Source: a virus
DNA: 34,023 nt
Strand: one strand, 5' to 3'
IMG/VR virus record: IMGVR_UViG_3300027733_000012
Coordinates: 1 to 34,023 of that record
The notes below the pieces were generated by a model. It saw only the letters and a program-made list of their open reading frames with translations, was not told where the DNA came from and ran no database searches. Shown here in pieces: positions 11,165-18,412 of this stretch. The position numbers and the translations under genes are program-made. How positions within the stretch are numbered: position 1 is the stretch's first letter; each line of letters begins with the position of its first letter.

Positions 11165-11184
11165 GCGCAGCCTGTCAAAAGAGC

Positions 11185-11467
11185 GGTAACACGGTAACAT
11201 CGACTTTGTTACCGTCCGACAGCCGCAAGCCATTGAACTGCCTAGCGAAATCGGAGCGGTAACATAGTAACACGATTTTTGCACATACCATGTGTAAGTC
11301 GAGGGGGGTCTCCTTGTGCGCACGCCCGTGAGCCCGCGCGCGCGTATAGGTGCTTGTTTTGGATGTTACTCATGTTACTCTATCAAAAAACTACTACTAT
11401 CTATAAACAAAACAGAGAGATAAGCGGTAACATCAGCGGTAACATCGGAGTAACATGCCATGTTACC
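11185..11467. repeat. GTAACA iteron cluster; candidate replication origin / control region
   Basis: Eleven copies of a (G/A)GTAACA core occur here and hardly elsewhere. Forward copies start at 11185, 11193, 11258, 11266, 11426, 11438 and 11449; reverse copies (TGTTAC(C/T)) start at 11207, 11364, 11373 and 11461. The extended consensus is about CGGTAACATC. They fall in four clusters with 8-12 base spacing. Between the third and fourth clusters is the most AT-rich stretch of the genome (11379-11423: A-runs and CTACTACTATCTATAAAC), a plausible unwinding element. The cluster sits between the divergent arms and upstream of the primase-helicase, the classic place for an iteron origin; operators for a regulator are the main alternative. 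Repeats are seen; function is inferred. Confidence 0.7.
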
Positions 11468-11792
11468 GCAAATCGGCTAAGTCGTTGAAACCTCGTTGCG
11501 GGCCTCTGGCGAGGGTCCTCGAGGAGCTCGAAACCGGCTCAAAACAGGGGGGCCTCGCGCGCGGACGCGAGGCTCGAGGCCCTCTCAGCGATGCATCTCG
11601 ACCACCAGCCCAAAAGGCATCGAGGCCCTCTCTCCTGGTGCCACGACAGCGGAGAGAGGACCTCGACTCAGCACTCTTGACAGGAGGTAGTCAGGAGGGC
11701 ATATTGGTCAGCGAGCCGCGACAACGGCTCATCAACCTGATGGCCTCGGTATACCCGAGGTGCCTAGTTTTTGCAAGCCCCCACGAGGTATC
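11468..11792 (+). promoter_or_regulatory. Structured untranslated leader before the primase gene
   Basis: About 325 bases without a convincing gene. It contains four perfect inverted repeats: GCCTCGCG/CGCGAGGC with a 6-base loop (11552-11573); CCTCTCTCC/GGAGAGAGG with a 15-base loop (11627-11659); GAGCCG/CGGCTC with a 6-base loop (11713-11730); and CCTCGG/CCGAGG with a 5-base loop (11744-11760). CGAGGCCCTCTC occurs twice (11574-11585 and 11621-11632). The last hairpin is followed seven bases later by TTTTT, like a weak attenuator, and the primase ribosome site comes after it. This may be an RNA leader controlling primase expression, or single-strand initiation sites belonging to the origin. 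Confidence 0.5.
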
Positions 11793-14591
11793 ATGCAAGA
11801 TGTATTGAGCGCGTTCGCACAAGCAGCGGAGGCCGAGCGCGGTCTCCTATTCCCTGACGGCGTCATAGCCAATGGCGAGCACCACAGGGTGCCGACGGTG
11901 TCCAAGCCGGACAAGAAGAACGGCTGGTATGTGGTGCACCTCAACGACGGGCCGGGGCAGAGTGGTGTGGTGGTGGCAGTGTTCAATGACCTTGCAGCTG
12001 GGCAGCCGGATGTGAAGTGGTCGAGCACGGCGAACAAGAGGCCAGAGGTGAACCTCGAGGAGGCGACAGCGACGATGAAGAAGAAGATAGCAGCTGCTGC
12101 CAAGGTGAAGGTGGACAAGGCCGAGGCAGCGGTGAACGAGGTGACGGCCGAGATAGCGCGGTCAAAGCCAGTGCAAGAGGCATTCGGTTACCTCGAGCAC
12201 AAGGGCGTAAGGTCGGTGCCAGGACTGTACCGCAGTGGGCAGACGCTGGTGGTGCCGCTGAAGGACGATAAGCAGCGTGTGGTGAACATGCAGCGCATCT
12301 GGCAGGACAGCGACGGTGTGTGGCAGAAGCGGTACCAGAAGAACGCAACGCGGGTGGGGACCTACTTTGCCATCAAGGCGAGCCCCGACACGGTAGCGAT
12401 TTGCGAGGGCGTGGCGACCGGCATCAGTGTCCATGAGGCGACAGGGTGGACAGTGCTTGCAGCTGGGGACACGACGCAGCTGGTGGCGGTGGCTAAGATG
12501 GCTCGTCGGATGATGCCAGGCGCTCGCATCATCCTTTGTGCCGACGATGACCGCATGACGGAGGGCAACCCAGGAGTGACCAAGGCACGAGAGGCGGCCG
12601 AGGCGGTTCGTGGCGAGGTGCGGGTGCCGGTGTTTGACGACCTTGATAGCCGAGGGACCGACTACAACGACCTGCATCAAGAGCAGGGGTTGTCGGAGGT
12701 GAAGTTGCAGCTGGAGGCCAAGGTCGAGCCGGTGGACGATGTGCCGCTGCCAGAGGAGGCACCCTACTACGAGGAGAAGCTCGGCAAGGAGAAGCCAGCA
12801 GGTGAGGAGGCATGGGTGCCGGATGGGTACGAGTTCACTAACACCGGTGCAGTGATACGGTTGCCGCCTGCCGACAGCGAGAAGCCCCCGACGCTCGTGA
12901 GCTCACAGCCATTGTGGGTAGCAGGGGTGCGGGTGGACGCGGTCGATGGCACAAGGTCGATGCTGGTGAAGTGGTGCACACCTCGAGCAGGTGAGTTCGG
13001 CCGGTTCGATAGGCCGCACCAGGTCATCGTGGACCGAGGCACGCTGCTCAATGCCCGCAGCATCGTGGCTCTGGCAAGCGCAGGGTTCCCGGTAGACTCG
13101 ACATGTGCGAGCGAGGTGGTGCTGTACCTGCGCAAGAGTGAGTCGCAGTACCTCGCCACGACGGTGCGAGCGGCGCAAGAGATGGTGGCAAGCGTGACAG
13201 GCTGGCATGGGGCGCTCGATTGGACTGCCTCGAGCTTCTTGATAGGCGAGAAGCAGGCGGGTTTGGGTTGCCCGACGTTCGAGAACCTCAACCCTGAGCT
13301 GGCGCGGCATGTGGGCGCGTTCACGGTGAGTGGCGAGGCATCGAAGCAGCTGGTGGTGCTGCGAGACATCGTTGACCAGCACCCCGACATGGCGACGGTG
13401 GTTGCGGTAGCTTTGGCGTCACCTTTGATGCGGGTAGTGTCGGCACCGGTGTTTGTCCTCGACATCGCCTGCGAGAGTAGCCGAGGCAAGACCAAGGCGC
13501 TGCTGGTGGCTGCGTCGGTGTATGGCTCGCCACAGACGATGCGGTCATGGGACACAACGAAGTACGCGCTCGAGATAGTGGCGAATGCGCAGCGGGGGTT
13601 GCCGTTGTTGCTCGATGAGACGCAGCGAGCGAGCAAGCCAGAGATGGTGCAGCCGATGGTCTACGACCTGTGCAACGTCGAGGGCAAGATGCGAGGCAAG
13701 GCCGACGGTGGAGTGCGGGCTATCTCTCGGTACGAGTCGCTGGTCATCAGCACAGGTGAGCAGAGCATAGCAGCCTTTGGCGACGCAGGCGGTGCTAGGG
13801 CGCGAATCCTGACCATCCAAGGCAGCCCTTGGAACGTGGGTATGCCCAAGCCTACGCCAGAGGCCATCAGGGCCTTGACGGTGTACCAGAGCCAGAGCCT
13901 CGACACCTTGTCGGACCACTACGGGCACGCGGGCCGGATGTTTGCCGAGAAGGTGGCGGTGCTGACAGAGGACGAGAGGCGTGAGCTGCGAGCTCGTTAT
14001 CGTGAGCTGGTGCATGCTCGGTCGGTGTCGGTGGAGGAGCTCAGCCCCAGTCACCCGATTGGGTCTCGGCTGTCGACGTATGCTGCGCTGATTGACCTTG
14101 CCGGCGAGCTGGCCGAGCGTTGGCTCGAGATGAAGCCGGCGGCATGGCTGTCGAGGGAGCGATGGTCAGCGATGCTCGGTTGCGGCCGTCCTGCCGACGT
14201 GGCAACGCAGGCGATGGAGCGGCTGGTGGCATGGGGTTGGTCAAGGTCAGCGCAGCTGCACGGCCATGGTGATGCGACCAAGACGTTGGGGCGCGATGCC
14301 ATCGGGACCTTCTCGGTTGATGGGGTGACAGGCAGGCCCAAGTTGCAGTTTGTGATGGCAACGGCCAACGACATGCTGCGCTCGGCAGGGTACCAGCCGG
14401 GAGCAGTAGCAGCGACATGGGCCTCACGCGGTTGGCTCAATGGCGACAAGGGGTCAAATACCTCTAAAGTCGTTAGTGTGGCAGGGTTCAAGGTGCGCAT
14501 GTACGACTTGAGCACGGTAGCACACTCGCTGCATGTGTGGCCGAGCGAGGATGCGGCAGAGAACATCTTTGCCGGTGATGTTCCGTTCTGA
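11793..14591 (+). CDS. Primase-helicase: TOPRIM primase plus DUF927-type ATPase
   Basis: 932 residues from ATG 11793 (CGAGGT close upstream; an in-frame GTG at 11760 lies in a hairpin). Residues ~120-190 resemble the part preceding TOPRIM in phage/plasmid primases (FGYLEHKGVRSVPGLYRSG...LVVPL). TOPRIM spans ~200-300: AICEG with Glu205, then CADDD (Asp251-253) and GTDYNDLH. The second half is DUF927-like: residues 370-550, Walker A ESSRGKTK (561-568), Walker B LPLLLDE (603-609), sensor-like VISTGE (651-656) and an arginine-bearing GARARIL. It would unwind and prime the origin region next to it, with host polymerase extending. The protein ends ...FAGDVPF, like the SSB C-terminal tip that recruits host replication proteins. 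Confidence 0.82.
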   Translation: MQDVLSAFAQAAEAERGLLFPDGVIANGEHHRVPTVSKPDKKNGWYVVHLNDGPGQSGVVVAVFNDLAAGQPDVKWSSTANKRPEVNLEEATATMKKKIAAAAKVKVDKAEAAVNEVTAEIARSKPVQEAFGYLEHKGVRSVPGLYRSGQTLVVPLKDDKQRVVNMQRIWQDSDGVWQKRYQKNATRVGTYFAIKASPDTVAICEGVATGISVHEATGWTVLAAGDTTQLVAVAKMARRMMPGARIILCADDDRMTEGNPGVTKAREAAEAVRGEVRVPVFDDLDSRGTDYNDLHQEQGLSEVKLQLEAKVEPVDDVPLPEEAPYYEEKLGKEKPAGEEAWVPDGYEFTNTGAVIRLPPADSEKPPTLVSSQPLWVAGVRVDAVDGTRSMLVKWCTPRAGEFGRFDRPHQVIVDRGTLLNARSIVALASAGFPVDSTCASEVVLYLRKSESQYLATTVRAAQEMVASVTGWHGALDWTASSFLIGEKQAGLGCPTFENLNPELARHVGAFTVSGEASKQLVVLRDIVDQHPDMATVVAVALASPLMRVVSAPVFVLDIACESSRGKTKALLVAASVYGSPQTMRSWDTTKYALEIVANAQRGLPLLLDETQRASKPEMVQPMVYDLCNVEGKMRGKADGGVRAISRYESLVISTGEQSIAAFGDAGGARARILTIQGSPWNVGMPKPTPEAIRALTVYQSQSLDTLSDHYGHAGRMFAEKVAVLTEDERRELRARYRELVHARSVSVEELSPSHPIGSRLSTYAALIDLAGELAERWLEMKPAAWLSRERWSAMLGCGRPADVATQAMERLVAWGWSRSAQLHGHGDATKTLGRDAIGTFSVDGVTGRPKLQFVMATANDMLRSAGYQPGAVAATWASRGWLNGDKGSNTSKVVSVAGFKVRMYDLSTVAHSLHVWPSEDAAENIFAGDVPF

Positions 14592-14626
14592 GCAGAAATC
14601 GACATCGGGGGGCAGAAATCGACATC
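14592..14626. repeat. Two direct copies of a 15-bp sequence just after the primase stop
   Basis: GCAGAAATCGACATC occurs at 14592-14606 and 14612-14626, a 20-base period, starting right after the primase stop codon. It is followed by the partly complementary AACGATGTTGAC and by CAGGT-gaat-ACCTG (14641-14654), a perfect 5-bp hairpin. It may be a protein-binding site or part of a terminator/processing region. The following gene has its own leader. Confidence 0.55.
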
Positions 14627-14672
14627 AACGATGTTGACCGCAGGTGAATACCTGTTAGGACCTCTTCTCACA

Positions 14673-14722
14673 GGCAGCGACAACTGCCCGCCCTACATAG
14701 TCACCCCGCCCCGCTTAGGGGC
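14673..14722 (+). ncRNA. Two-hairpin leader element, copy 1
   Basis: Hairpin 1 is GGCAG-cgacaa-CTGCC (14673-14688). Hairpin 2 is GCCCC-GCTTA-GGGGC (14708-14722) and is followed by CAGGAGAGAAGCC and the ATG at 14741. Hairpin 2 is the same 15-mer, except one loop base, as at 16587-16601. The order (stem with an A-containing loop, spacer, GC-pure stem, ribosome site) is shared with the leaders before the genes at 16268 and 16621. Confidence 0.5.
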
Positions 14723-14740: not shown

Positions 14741-15157
14741 ATGAGGCTTACCATCGAGAACGCGTCCGAGACCTTCCTCACCCTCGTCAACACCATCACC
14801 GGTACTGAGTTCACTCAGACCAAGACCTGCATCATCGGTGACACCCGGTGCCAGAGCATCAAGCGCCACGAGGGCACTGGCACGCTGGTCGACTATTCCT
14901 TCACGCTCGCCATCCTCGAGACGGGCCGTGATGCCTCTGGCGAGCAGCTGCACGACATGCGTGTGATTGCCAACCGCACGGTCAACCTGCCTTGGTCGCA
15001 GGGCAACCGCACGACCATCACGTCGGTGGCTATCTCTGACCAGTCGCCCATCGACCTCAACAACCTTGGCCTTGCCATCGAGCACTGCATCGACCGGCTG
15101 ACCGAGCAGGCTGAGGTTCTCTCGCAGCATGTGCGCAGCGAGGTGGCCTATGTCTAA
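14741..15157 (+). CDS. Unknown early protein upstream of the exonuclease
   Basis: 138 residues, ATG 14741 with AGGAGAG before it. It starts MRLTIENASETFLTLVNTITG and is a soluble mixed alpha/beta protein with a likely C-terminal helix (NNLGLAIEHCIDRLTEQAEVL). I recognise no motif. It overlaps the exonuclease start by eight bases, so the two are probably co-translated and functionally linked, perhaps as a recombination accessory or exonuclease partner. No annotation beyond that is supported. Confidence 0.75.
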   Translation: MRLTIENASETFLTLVNTITGTEFTQTKTCIIGDTRCQSIKRHEGTGTLVDYSFTLAILETGRDASGEQLHDMRVIANRTVNLPWSQGNRTTITSVAISDQSPIDLNNLGLAIEHCIDRLTEQAEVLSQHVRSEVAYV

Positions 15158-16199
15158 GGTCAACTACCCCAACGCAGTGCGAGAGATTCCCGTCCACGAG
15201 CACGGCAGCCGCGAGTGGCTCATCGAGCGTGCCAACACCCTCGGTGCATCTGAGCTGGGCAAGGCGCTCGGCGTGTCGCCCTACGGTGGCCTGCTGTCGC
15301 TGGTCATCGAGAAGCGCCAGTCGCGCGCCGGCAACCCCGATGTCATCACCTCTGATGCGATGCAGGATGGTCAGGATGCCGAAGACACGGTCCTGCGCAT
15401 GGCATGGCGTCGCCTTCAGCAGCTCGCAGGCGGTGCCTACTACAGCACGCCGCAGCCAGAAATGGTCAAGGGCACTGCCATCGCGCTCGGTGCCCTGTCT
15501 GCCACGCCTGATGCGCTCATCATCGACCAAGAGACGATGAATGCGGTTAGTCTTATCGAGGCAAAGCTCGACCGCTCGCGCAACACCGACTGGGCCGAGG
15601 TGCTCGAGAACGGCTTTGGTCACTTGAACGGGCAAGACCTCAGGTTGAACTACTGGTGGCAAGTCCAAAGTCAGCTGTATTGCTCGGGTCTTTCAGTAGG
15701 TTACCTCGCAGTTTGGACTGTGTTCAACTTCTATCTCATCGAGATTGAGGCAGACGAGGCCGCAGCCGAGGTGATTGCCCAGGTAGGCCCGACCGTGATG
15801 GCATGGGTTGTCGACTCGGCCGACCGTCTGCCTGCTCCGACTGATGCCGACGGGCTGCGCACCATCGCAAGCACGGTGCGTCCTGCCTCTGAGGGGCCGA
15901 TTGAGGTGGAGGGAGCAGTGGCCGAGGCCCTTGCTGCCTATGTCTCGCTGGGCAAGCAGATTGACGCCCTTGATGAGCAGCGCGACGCAGCCAAGCGCAT
16001 CATCCTCGAGGCGCACAATGCAGGTGCCAAGCTGGCCTCGGCCGACGGCATCAAGAGCAGCTTCATCGCAGCGTCGGAGCGTGTCAGCCTGGACACCAAG
16101 AAGCTCGAGAGTGACCACCCCGCGCTGGTGGCTGACTACCGCAAGGTGACGCAGGTGTCGGCCTCGTGCCGCGTGACTGCCCCGCGCAGCAAGGGCTAA
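15150..16199 (+). CDS. YqaJ-type viral recombinase / exonuclease
   Basis: 349 residues from ATG 15150 inside the end of the previous gene. The PD-(D/E)XK nuclease core is visible: SREWLIERANTLGASELGKALG (substrate-entry motif with the conserved Arg and T/G-A-S), QDGQDAED (Glu78 in the conserved G-x-x-x-E position), SATPDALI with Asp121, then LIEAK (Glu137, Lys139), and NYWWQVQSQLYCSGL, the Y-x-x-Q-x-Q motif of this family. Such enzymes degrade one strand of a duplex to give single-stranded DNA on which a RecT-type protein anneals; a RecT gene follows 1 kb downstream. The C-terminal third (AYVSLGKQIDALDEQRDAAKRII) is a coiled coil often attached to phage YqaJ proteins. Confidence 0.85.
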   Translation: MSKVNYPNAVREIPVHEHGSREWLIERANTLGASELGKALGVSPYGGLLSLVIEKRQSRAGNPDVITSDAMQDGQDAEDTVLRMAWRRLQQLAGGAYYSTPQPEMVKGTAIALGALSATPDALIIDQETMNAVSLIEAKLDRSRNTDWAEVLENGFGHLNGQDLRLNYWWQVQSQLYCSGLSVGYLAVWTVFNFYLIEIEADEAAAEVIAQVGPTVMAWVVDSADRLPAPTDADGLRTIASTVRPASEGPIEVEGAVAEALAAYVSLGKQIDALDEQRDAAKRIILEAHNAGAKLASADGIKSSFIAASERVSLDTKKLESDHPALVADYRKVTQVSASCRVTAPRSKG

Positions 16200-16203
16200 G
16201 CCC

Positions 16204-16249
16204 AGTGGCAGGTGCAACCCCTGCCATGCTGCCTGCCCGATGTTGGGCA
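16204..16249 (+). ncRNA. Two-hairpin leader element, copy 2
   Basis: Hairpin 1 is GGCAGG-TGCAACC-CCTGCC (16207-16225), extended outward by a T-A pair and a G-U pair. The linker ATGCTGCC follows, then hairpin 2 TGCCC-GATGTT-GGGCA (16234-16249), then AAGGAGAGAGAG and the ATG at 16268. Compared with copy 3, the stem pairs change together while the loop start (TGCAA) and linker (TGCTGCCT) stay the same, which points to a selected RNA structure. Confidence 0.55.
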
Positions 16250-16267
16250 AGCCAAGGAGAGAGAGCC

Positions 16268-16546
16268 ATGAGCAAGAAGCTGAAGAGAGAGATAGTGATG
16301 ATGGCTGTGCAGCGTCGTGTGTTGCCGCTCAAGGACGAGACAGCGGTGCAGCACGCGGTGCGAGCCTACAAGATTGCGCAGGACTGCATGGCTGCGCTCG
16401 AGGACAAGGTGGAGGCCGAGCCCGCGCCTGCCGCACCTGCCGAGGTGTCAGACTGGACCGTGAAGCTGGCCGGCGCTGACCTCATCAAGATGTGGACCCC
16501 GACAGGCAACCGTTGGGTGACCATCAGCAAGCAGCTCAAGGACTAA
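16268..16546 (+). CDS. Unknown small early protein
   Basis: 92 residues; ATG 16268 is chosen for the AAGGAG upstream. The frame is open before it, but that stretch is the structured leader. It begins MSKKLKREIVMMAVQRRV (basic), has a helix (AVQHAVRAYKIAQDCMAALEDK), a Glu/Ala/Pro hinge, and a compact C-terminal part with WTVKLAGADLIKMW. No family is recognised. It lies between the exonuclease and RecT, so a role with recombination or early takeover is possible. Confidence 0.7.
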   Translation: MSKKLKREIVMMAVQRRVLPLKDETAVQHAVRAYKIAQDCMAALEDKVEAEPAPAAPAEVSDWTVKLAGADLIKMWTPTGNRWVTISKQLKD

Positions 16547-16552
16547 GCCTGC

Positions 16553-16601
16553 TGCCGGGTGCAAGCCCCGGCGTGCTGCCTCACCCGCCCCGATTAGGGG
16601 C
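16553..16601 (+). ncRNA. Two-hairpin leader element, copy 3
   Basis: Hairpin 1 is GCCGGG-TGCAAGC-CCCGGC (16554-16572). The linker GTGCTGCCTCACC follows, then hairpin 2 GCCCC-GATTA-GGGGC (16587-16601), then AAGGAGG and the ATG at 16621. Against copy 2, hairpin 1 shows two double compensatory changes (G-C to C-G and A-T to G-C) with the 7-base loop kept as TGCAA(C/G)C. Confidence 0.55.
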
Positions 16602-16620
16602 ATTTGAGAAGGAGGATGAG

Positions 16621-17220: not shown

Positions 17221-17223
17221 CCT

Positions 17224-17234
17224 CCCCCCCCCCC
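17224..17234 (+). repeat. Run of eleven C bases in the RecT leader
   Basis: A homopolymer C11 directly follows the previous stop, with GCAAGAGAGAGAG and the RecT ATG after it. It occupies the place where the two preceding genes have hairpin 2. Its length may vary between virions or be miscounted by sequencing. It is outside coding sequence, so any slippage would change leader length and not frame. Confidence 0.85.
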
Positions 17235-17252
17235 GCAAGAGAGAGAGACCCC

Positions 17253-18098: not shown

Positions 18099-18412
18099 GT
18101 AACTACCCTCACGCCCGCGCCGTCCTGGCGTCTCGCATCGTGCAGCTGCACGGCACCCAGCACCGGCTGGCTCAGCTCCTTGGCGAGAGCCGGCAGCTGC
18201 TGCTGCAACGGCAGAAGTCGGCAGCCAAGTATGCCAACAGCCACGGCTGGTGGTCCAACCTGCTCATCATGGAGCCTACCTGGCTGCTCGAGGAGATGCA
18301 GAGCCGGCCGATGCCGAGCCCGATGTTGGTTGCTGCCGCTGTTGAGCTCAACCAGAACACCTACAACCAGTACCGCCGTGTTGGCGGTCGCCCCCGCAAG
18401 GTGAAGCCATGA
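18095..18412 (+). CDS. Unknown small protein with AT-hook-like end (TTG start)
   Basis: 105 residues. The start is TTG 18095, overlapping the RecT stop as TTGA, with GAGG eight bases before it; no ATG occurs until well inside. The first half is helical (ASRIVQLHGTQHRLAQLLGESRQLLLQ), reminiscent of a helix-turn-helix without a clear match. A Trp-rich middle follows (HGWWSNLLIMEPTWLLEEM), then LNQNTYNQYRRVGGRPRKVKP, whose GGRPRK resembles an AT-hook core. DNA binding is likely; the job is unknown. Confidence 0.65.
   Translation: MSNYPHARAVLASRIVQLHGTQHRLAQLLGESRQLLLQRQKSAAKYANSHGWWSNLLIMEPTWLLEEMQSRPMPSPMLVAAAVELNQNTYNQYRRVGGRPRKVKP

Follow-up and report, generated by a model that had tools for sequence, protein, structure and literature searches.

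Comparative evidence for two-hairpin RNA leaders in the replication-recombination operon of a small family of uncultured phages

Why should the wide gaps between early genes of one phage operon carry the same pair of small hairpins? The question is raised by a virus record of 34,023 bases (G000; "the window" is this whole stretch), in which such leaders stand in wide gaps before a subset of the non-structural genes, those of DNA replication and recombination (Table 1); the terminase gene is on the minus strand. An earlier note, made from the sequence alone, held that the spacers before the genes at 16268 and 16621 share one plan, and both two-hairpin leaders (A and B) were indeed located as described. 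Their core consists of TAAGCC, a stem enclosing a UGCAASC loop, and GCYGCCU. Hairpin 1 begins 6 nt past the preceding stop codon, the stems are short and perfect, and 8 to 13 nt separate the two hairpins; the ribosome sites of the leaders read CCAAGGAGAGAGAG, GAGAAGGAGGATGAG and CCCAGGAGAGAAG.

Table 1. Positions of leader elements and neighbouring genes in the window
Feature	Position	Strand	Sequence or remark
Leader D promoter	11677-11705	+	TTGACA-17-CATATT; 10/12 matches; conserved; best promoter of region
Leader D hairpin 1	11713-11730	+	GAGCCG-CGACAA-CGGCTC; at expected transcript 5' end
Leader D second hairpin	11743-11772	+	CCTCGG-TATAC-CCGAGG, then TGCCTAGTTTTT; terminator-like
Primase/helicase gene	ORF from 11760, more likely ATG 11793, to 14591	+	
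Leader C promoter-like site	14634-14661	+	TTGACC-16-TAGGAC; TTGACA-17-TAGGAC in L007
Leader C hairpin 1	14673-14688	+	GGCAG-CGACAA-CTGCC; 11 nt after promoter-like site
Leader C hairpin 2	14708-14722	+	GCCCC-GCTTA-GGGGC; 18 nt before ATG 14741
p138 gene	start 14741	+	
RecE/YqaJ exonuclease gene	15129-16199	+	
Leader A hairpin 1	16206-16226	+	7-bp stem TGGCAGG/CCTGCCA; loop UGCAACC 16213-16219, T-loop-like
Leader A linker	16227-16234	+	TGCTGCCT; GCYGCCT in every copy
Leader A hairpin 2	16235-16248	+	GCCC-GATGTT-GGGC
Leader A ribosome site	16254-16259	+	AAGGAG
p92 gene	start 16268	+	92 aa; downstream of leader A
Leader B hairpin 1	16554-16572	+	GCCGGG/CCCGGC, 6 bp (7 with U-G); loop UGCAAGC 16560-16566
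Leader B linker	16574-16581	+	TGCTGCCT; GCYGCCT in every copy
Leader B hairpin 2	16587-16601	+	GCCCC-GATTA-GGGGC
Leader B ribosome site	16609-16615	+	AAGGAGG
p199 gene	start 16621	+	downstream of leader B
RecT gene	start 17253	+	

The virus family concerned is small and uncultured, with bacterial hosts. We found no isolate phage close to the window and no near matches among annotated phages; searches with RecT, p199, p138 and the primase all returned the same few IMG/VR contigs, and among farther relatives sought through the primase (in viral and genome collections), p138 and RecT, none with the leader was found. Gene order is kept between the window and its relatives. Leaders A and B recur at identical gene junctions in three contigs (L003, 3300041016_001135; L004, 3300007734_000529; L005, 3300011336_000588), two others (L006, 3300037502_002931; L007, 3300017747_004125) lack p92, and a further one, L002, starts directly before RecT. 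The comparative set comprises six phages, and because the leaders are known from these six, in two clades, the independent events are few.

The evidence for leader structure is comparative; the folding energies of the A and B copies are unremarkable (z of -0.3 to -1.6, not significant alone). When the copies of hairpin 1 are aligned, which requires no gaps, 98% of the pair cells are paired and three of the seven pairs show two-sided changes, part of this covariation being the difference between the paralogues A and B; if the partners are slid by 1 to 3 columns as a control, pairing drops to 33-49% and the two-sided changes nearly disappear. At the orthologous B site, a C-G pair has become U-A in L004 and L005 (GCCGGG/CCCGGC to GCUGGG/CCCAGC). 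The GG/CC closing pairs of hairpin 1 are invariant in every copy while the outer pairs vary, and the outermost is U-A or U-G, a pairing possible only in plus-strand RNA. Hairpin 2 is independently compensated at orthologous positions, with every change two-sided and no pair broken: in leader C its stem reads GCCCC/GGGGC, GCCUC/GAGGC or GCUCC/GGAGC (compensated in L004, L006 and L007), and in leader B of L004 GCCCC/GGGGC has been replaced by GCUGC/GCAGC. We take this comparison to show that both hairpins form in plus-strand RNA and are under selection. The earlier note had read selection on RNA structure from the window; paired changes in both hairpins bear this out in the relatives, where the TGCAA loop and the linker are also kept.

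Between the window and its three close relatives, the A and B cores are 84-100% identical but the downstream genes only about 48-70% (p92 64-70% and p199 roughly 48-60% in L003-L005, the ends of p199 in the relatives having been set approximately for these figures). Core A alone is 100, 97 and 97% identical to the window in L003, L004 and L005, against 56-68% for the rest of leader A. The stop-to-ATG distances vary among relatives by amounts not divisible by three, and the gap is therefore not coding. Judged by these comparisons, the leaders are real RNA control elements; the process that they control is what we infer below.

How specific is the sequence? Taken by itself, the linker 8-mer TGCTGCCT is unremarkable (5 occurrences in the window against 3.5 expected), and we rejected it, like the loop GGTGCAASCCC with mismatches, as a genome-wide word, given occurrence at chance level. 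The worry that such sequences occur by chance throughout the genome thus holds for linker or loop alone but not for the complete core, which is specific to relatives: a pattern with fixed TAAGCC and loop and a free stem is found in only five contigs in all IMG/VR, all of them relatives of the window phage. A covariance model, the check proposed in the earlier note, retrieved 10 strong copies in eight records including the window, exactly the leaders at the A, B and fused sites (the fused site is described below); the next match has E=0.04, and nothing else was credible. With the pattern GTGCAASCCC-N6-GCNGCCT, the stem was present, among the new loci, only in the two from the L006 and L007 contigs. 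No Rfam 15 family reached its gathering threshold in the window, the best sub-threshold matches being at chance level, so that the form is, as had been supposed, undescribed as far as Rfam goes.

The closest known kind of element is the SAS/ESAS repeats of Cluster K mycobacteriophages and Cluster EF Microbacterium phages, along with Cluster EG repeats 14-21 bp before starts (PMC3203893, PMC7302621). These repeats, too, occupy wide gaps ahead of some but not all non-structural phage genes, near the ribosome site and with inverted repeats upstream. However, SAS is a 13-bp word that includes the ribosome site, GGGATAGGAGCCC (PMC3203893, PMC7302621), and neither this word nor a close form of it stands at the ribosome sites here. 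ESAS are imperfect 17-bp inverted repeats with conserved arms and a variable spacer, whereas here the arms (5-7 bp) are variable and compensated and the loop is conserved; the linker and the two-hairpin order are further differences. The authors of the ESAS work found little support for RNA hairpins and favored DNA-binding sites (PMC3203893, PMC7302621), whereas the paired changes here support RNA, and it is this comparative proof of RNA pairing that distinguishes our leaders from SAS/ESAS. Start-associated early repeats of phages were described more than ten years ago, but no consensus has formed on how they work, be it as DNA or as RNA. The compensated stems point to RNA in this phage family, and two features lend themselves to testing: the specific, T-loop-like loop and a constant geometry with respect to the start codon.

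That geometry concerns hairpin 2, whose end lies 17-20 nt before the start codon in 16 of 16 leaders (A, B, C and fused), with the starts of leader B in L003, L004 and L005 and of the fused leader in L007 moved by eye to the ATG after GATGAR. The distance stays in this range despite differing stems, loops and spacers; a hairpin of this kind lies 14-22 nt upstream of about 2.2% of the positions in the window. A hairpin end at 17-20 nt falls roughly where the footprint of 30S initiation has its upstream limit. Two more window starts (18409, and 3770 on the minus strand) have 5- to 6-bp hairpins at 19-20 nt. The first of these hairpins, ACCGCC-GTGTT-GGCGGT at 18372-18388, ends 20 nt before its start within the coding end of the preceding gene; it is kept in L006 and L007, has a G-U pair in L002 and is weaker in L003-L005. 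Predicted ribosome-site accessibility is ordinary (A, B and C rank 8, 18 and 6 of 32 starts), and we discarded the idea that these leaders have better accessibility, which is not seen in the prediction.

We favor the reading, with a probability of roughly 0.4, that leaders A and B are post-transcriptional cis-acting modules in the gaps of the replication-recombination operon, each making the next gene an expression unit of its own; the mechanism we infer is as follows. Hairpin 2, placed where the initiating 30S subunit has its upstream limit, would prevent base pairing between the ribosome site and sequence farther upstream, and might also shield the 5' side of the downstream message. The loop of hairpin 1 and the conserved linker would be the part recognized by a factor, and if the linker is cut, hairpin 1 could in addition shield the 3' end of the upstream message. 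Against such a module stand the ordinary predicted accessibility of the ribosome sites and the high GC content of the linker, which sets it apart from typical RNase E sites. In the promoter-linked leaders C and D, a first hairpin with a CGACAA loop would fill the same slot, at the 5' end of the transcript.

The same facts may be read differently, and we regard a protein-bound translational operator as the main rival, with antitermination next. One phage protein would bind hairpin 1, and the CGACAA hairpins as well, and thereby repress or co-ordinate the translation of several early genes, much as T4 gp43 acts on its own message. A loop that never varies, on a stem that changes freely and with compensation, is what loop recognition usually leaves behind, and several early genes of one operon are preceded by the same element. 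The gp43 operators of T4 and RB69 offer a parallel: upstream of an early replication gene, at a distance of about 40 nt from its start, stands a hairpin with a near-constant loop (PMC3014915); here, in contrast, the element is common to several genes, a second hairpin intervenes, and no candidate binding protein was identified, with no RNA-binding family found in p138, p92 or p199. Moreover, the A and B loops differ from those of C and D, which makes a single protein for all unlikely. We consider this explanation possible but doubtful.

What might recognize hairpin 1 is suggested by its loop. As defined in a survey of riboswitch structures, a T-loop has two closing G-C pairs that show a strand bias, a U-A pair (trans Watson-Crick/Hoogsteen in the folded RNA), a GNR triloop and, on the 3' side, two bases that bulge out (PMC2258182). 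Hairpin 1 reads GG-U-GCA-A-(C/G)C-CC, which matches this consensus in sequence in every copy, and the UGCAASC loop probably folds as a T-loop. The T-arm of tRNA and the T-loops of the AdoCbl, FMN and TPP riboswitches are alike in loop sequence and closing pairs (PMC2258182), but here the hairpin is isolated in an intergenic leader, and no ligand-binding core or partner strand was found. It is conceivable, though a long shot, that a T-arm-like hairpin after stop codons lets a factor that recognizes the tRNA elbow act on the early gene gaps, in processing or in coupling termination to re-initiation; equally conjectural candidates for that factor are RNase P, a T-arm modification enzyme and the L1 stalk of the ribosome. 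Recruitment of an elbow-binding factor would be a new way of organizing polycistronic phage messages. Four other pairings were rejected: loop-loop kissing of hairpins 1 and 2 (pairs in some copies of the alignments only); a pairing between the bulged bases of the loop and the two nucleotides that precede the stem, which covaries on paper but cannot span a 7-bp helix and fails in some copies; the linker as an anti-Shine-Dalgarno sequence (4 bp in B, 3 in A); and a stop-codon hairpin GGGC-TAA-GCCC, not formed in B of the window.

Leader C had been proposed as a third copy. It does share hairpin 2 (loop GCTTA against GATTA), but its first loop is CGACAA and it lacks both TGCAA and TGCTGCCT; one three-copy leader family is not supported, and C has a different first hairpin with a similar second. 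C and D lie behind promoters and A and B do not; the promoter-like site of C is conserved in six phages but is a weak match, not called by the promoter scan. Hairpin 1 of D lies before the primase gene, 7-8 nt behind its promoter, and in L006 and L007 its stem is GGCAG/CTGCC with the loop unchanged. When the CGACAA hairpins are compared, all five pairs change two-sidedly and the loop is invariant; the CGACAA loop also reappears in hairpin 2 of leader B in L004.

These placements bear on antitermination, in which the nascent hairpins would modify RNA polymerase, as does put RNA, which lets polymerase pass terminators in cis with no need of a phage protein, or load a nut-like complex, allowing read-through of early terminators. 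C and D begin at the predicted transcript 5' end, and in D a terminator-like hairpin with TTTTT follows. In another group of phages and prophages, promoters with dyad operators are followed by the exact 16-mer of hairpin C, then by a second hairpin and mostly a boxA-like CTGCTCTTT, and Leptolyngbya phage Lbo-JY16 has a homologous leader with a compensated stem (GCCAG-CCACAA-CTGGC), then CGCTCTTTACACAA. Yet A and B lie inside the operon, recurring ahead of genes just 0.3 kb apart, and the conserved boxA of lambda-type nut sites, CGCTCTT(T)A next to a hairpin, has no counterpart here: the boxA-like CTCTT that precedes hairpin C is not conserved in L005-L007, and none exists at D, A or B. The HK022 put RNA likewise forms two hairpins within about 70 nt of an early phage transcript, one copy just behind a promoter (PMC9378689), but its long, bulged stems almost abut and occur once per early operon, whereas ours are short and perfect, with a linker and operon-internal copies. 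With a background of 1.1% and about 117 matches, one further lineage in which a promoter precedes the 16-mer is close to what chance would give; in bacterial genomes the 16-mer occurs mostly by chance, and extended by NGGCAG it was absent from 399 genomes of one genus. For our leaders, antitermination appears rather unlikely. The leaders of the other phages and prophages (L056:6875-7060; L053, L077, L078, L079, L090; L092:2465-2660) are long and conserved, starting at the transcript start with GGCAG-CGACAA-CTGCC and mostly having a GAAA loop in the second hairpin; their sequences suggest undescribed antitermination leaders.

Two simpler explanations were weighed. In L006 and L007, a single fused leader has its first hairpin from A and its second hairpin, spacer and ribosome site from B, and the repeats therefore also serve as gene-exchange boundaries, selected or not. 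That they mainly allow gain or loss of cassettes such as p92, with regulation secondary, is improbable: compensatory changes are not required for homology to serve recombination, and the stems of A and B have stayed distinct rather than converging. The notion of intrinsic terminators or attenuators between genes, very improbable in our view, draws on GC-rich stems in the gaps and on the ATTT after leader B (ATTTT in L004), but A, C and most B copies have no T-run, and the scan, which does call the second hairpin of D a terminator, calls none in leaders A, B and C.

The surroundings of the leaders hold further repeats. Just upstream of promoter D, a long inverted repeat at 11621-11666 (CGAGG-C-CCTCTCTCC ... 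GGAGAGAGG-A-CCTCG) shows two-sided stem changes in relatives with its loop TGRTGCCACGACA kept (folding z -4.38), and many GGTAACA repeats, direct and inverted, lie in or beside the divergent control region at 11184-11470 and could be replication iterons or repressor sites. Directly upstream of promoter C, two CAGAAATCGACATC copies stand 20 bp apart (14593-14626), and a palindrome, CAGGTGAATACCTG, lies between its -35 and -10; all of these are largely lost in L006 and L007. At 11760-11795, the primase ORF opens at GTG 11760, GAGG and a conserved ATG follow at 11785-11795, and the stretch from GTG to ATG is kept at the nucleotide level, like leader RNA. The gap before RecT (17221-17252) is without hairpins and has instead a C-run, 13 C in the window and shorter or interrupted in relatives.
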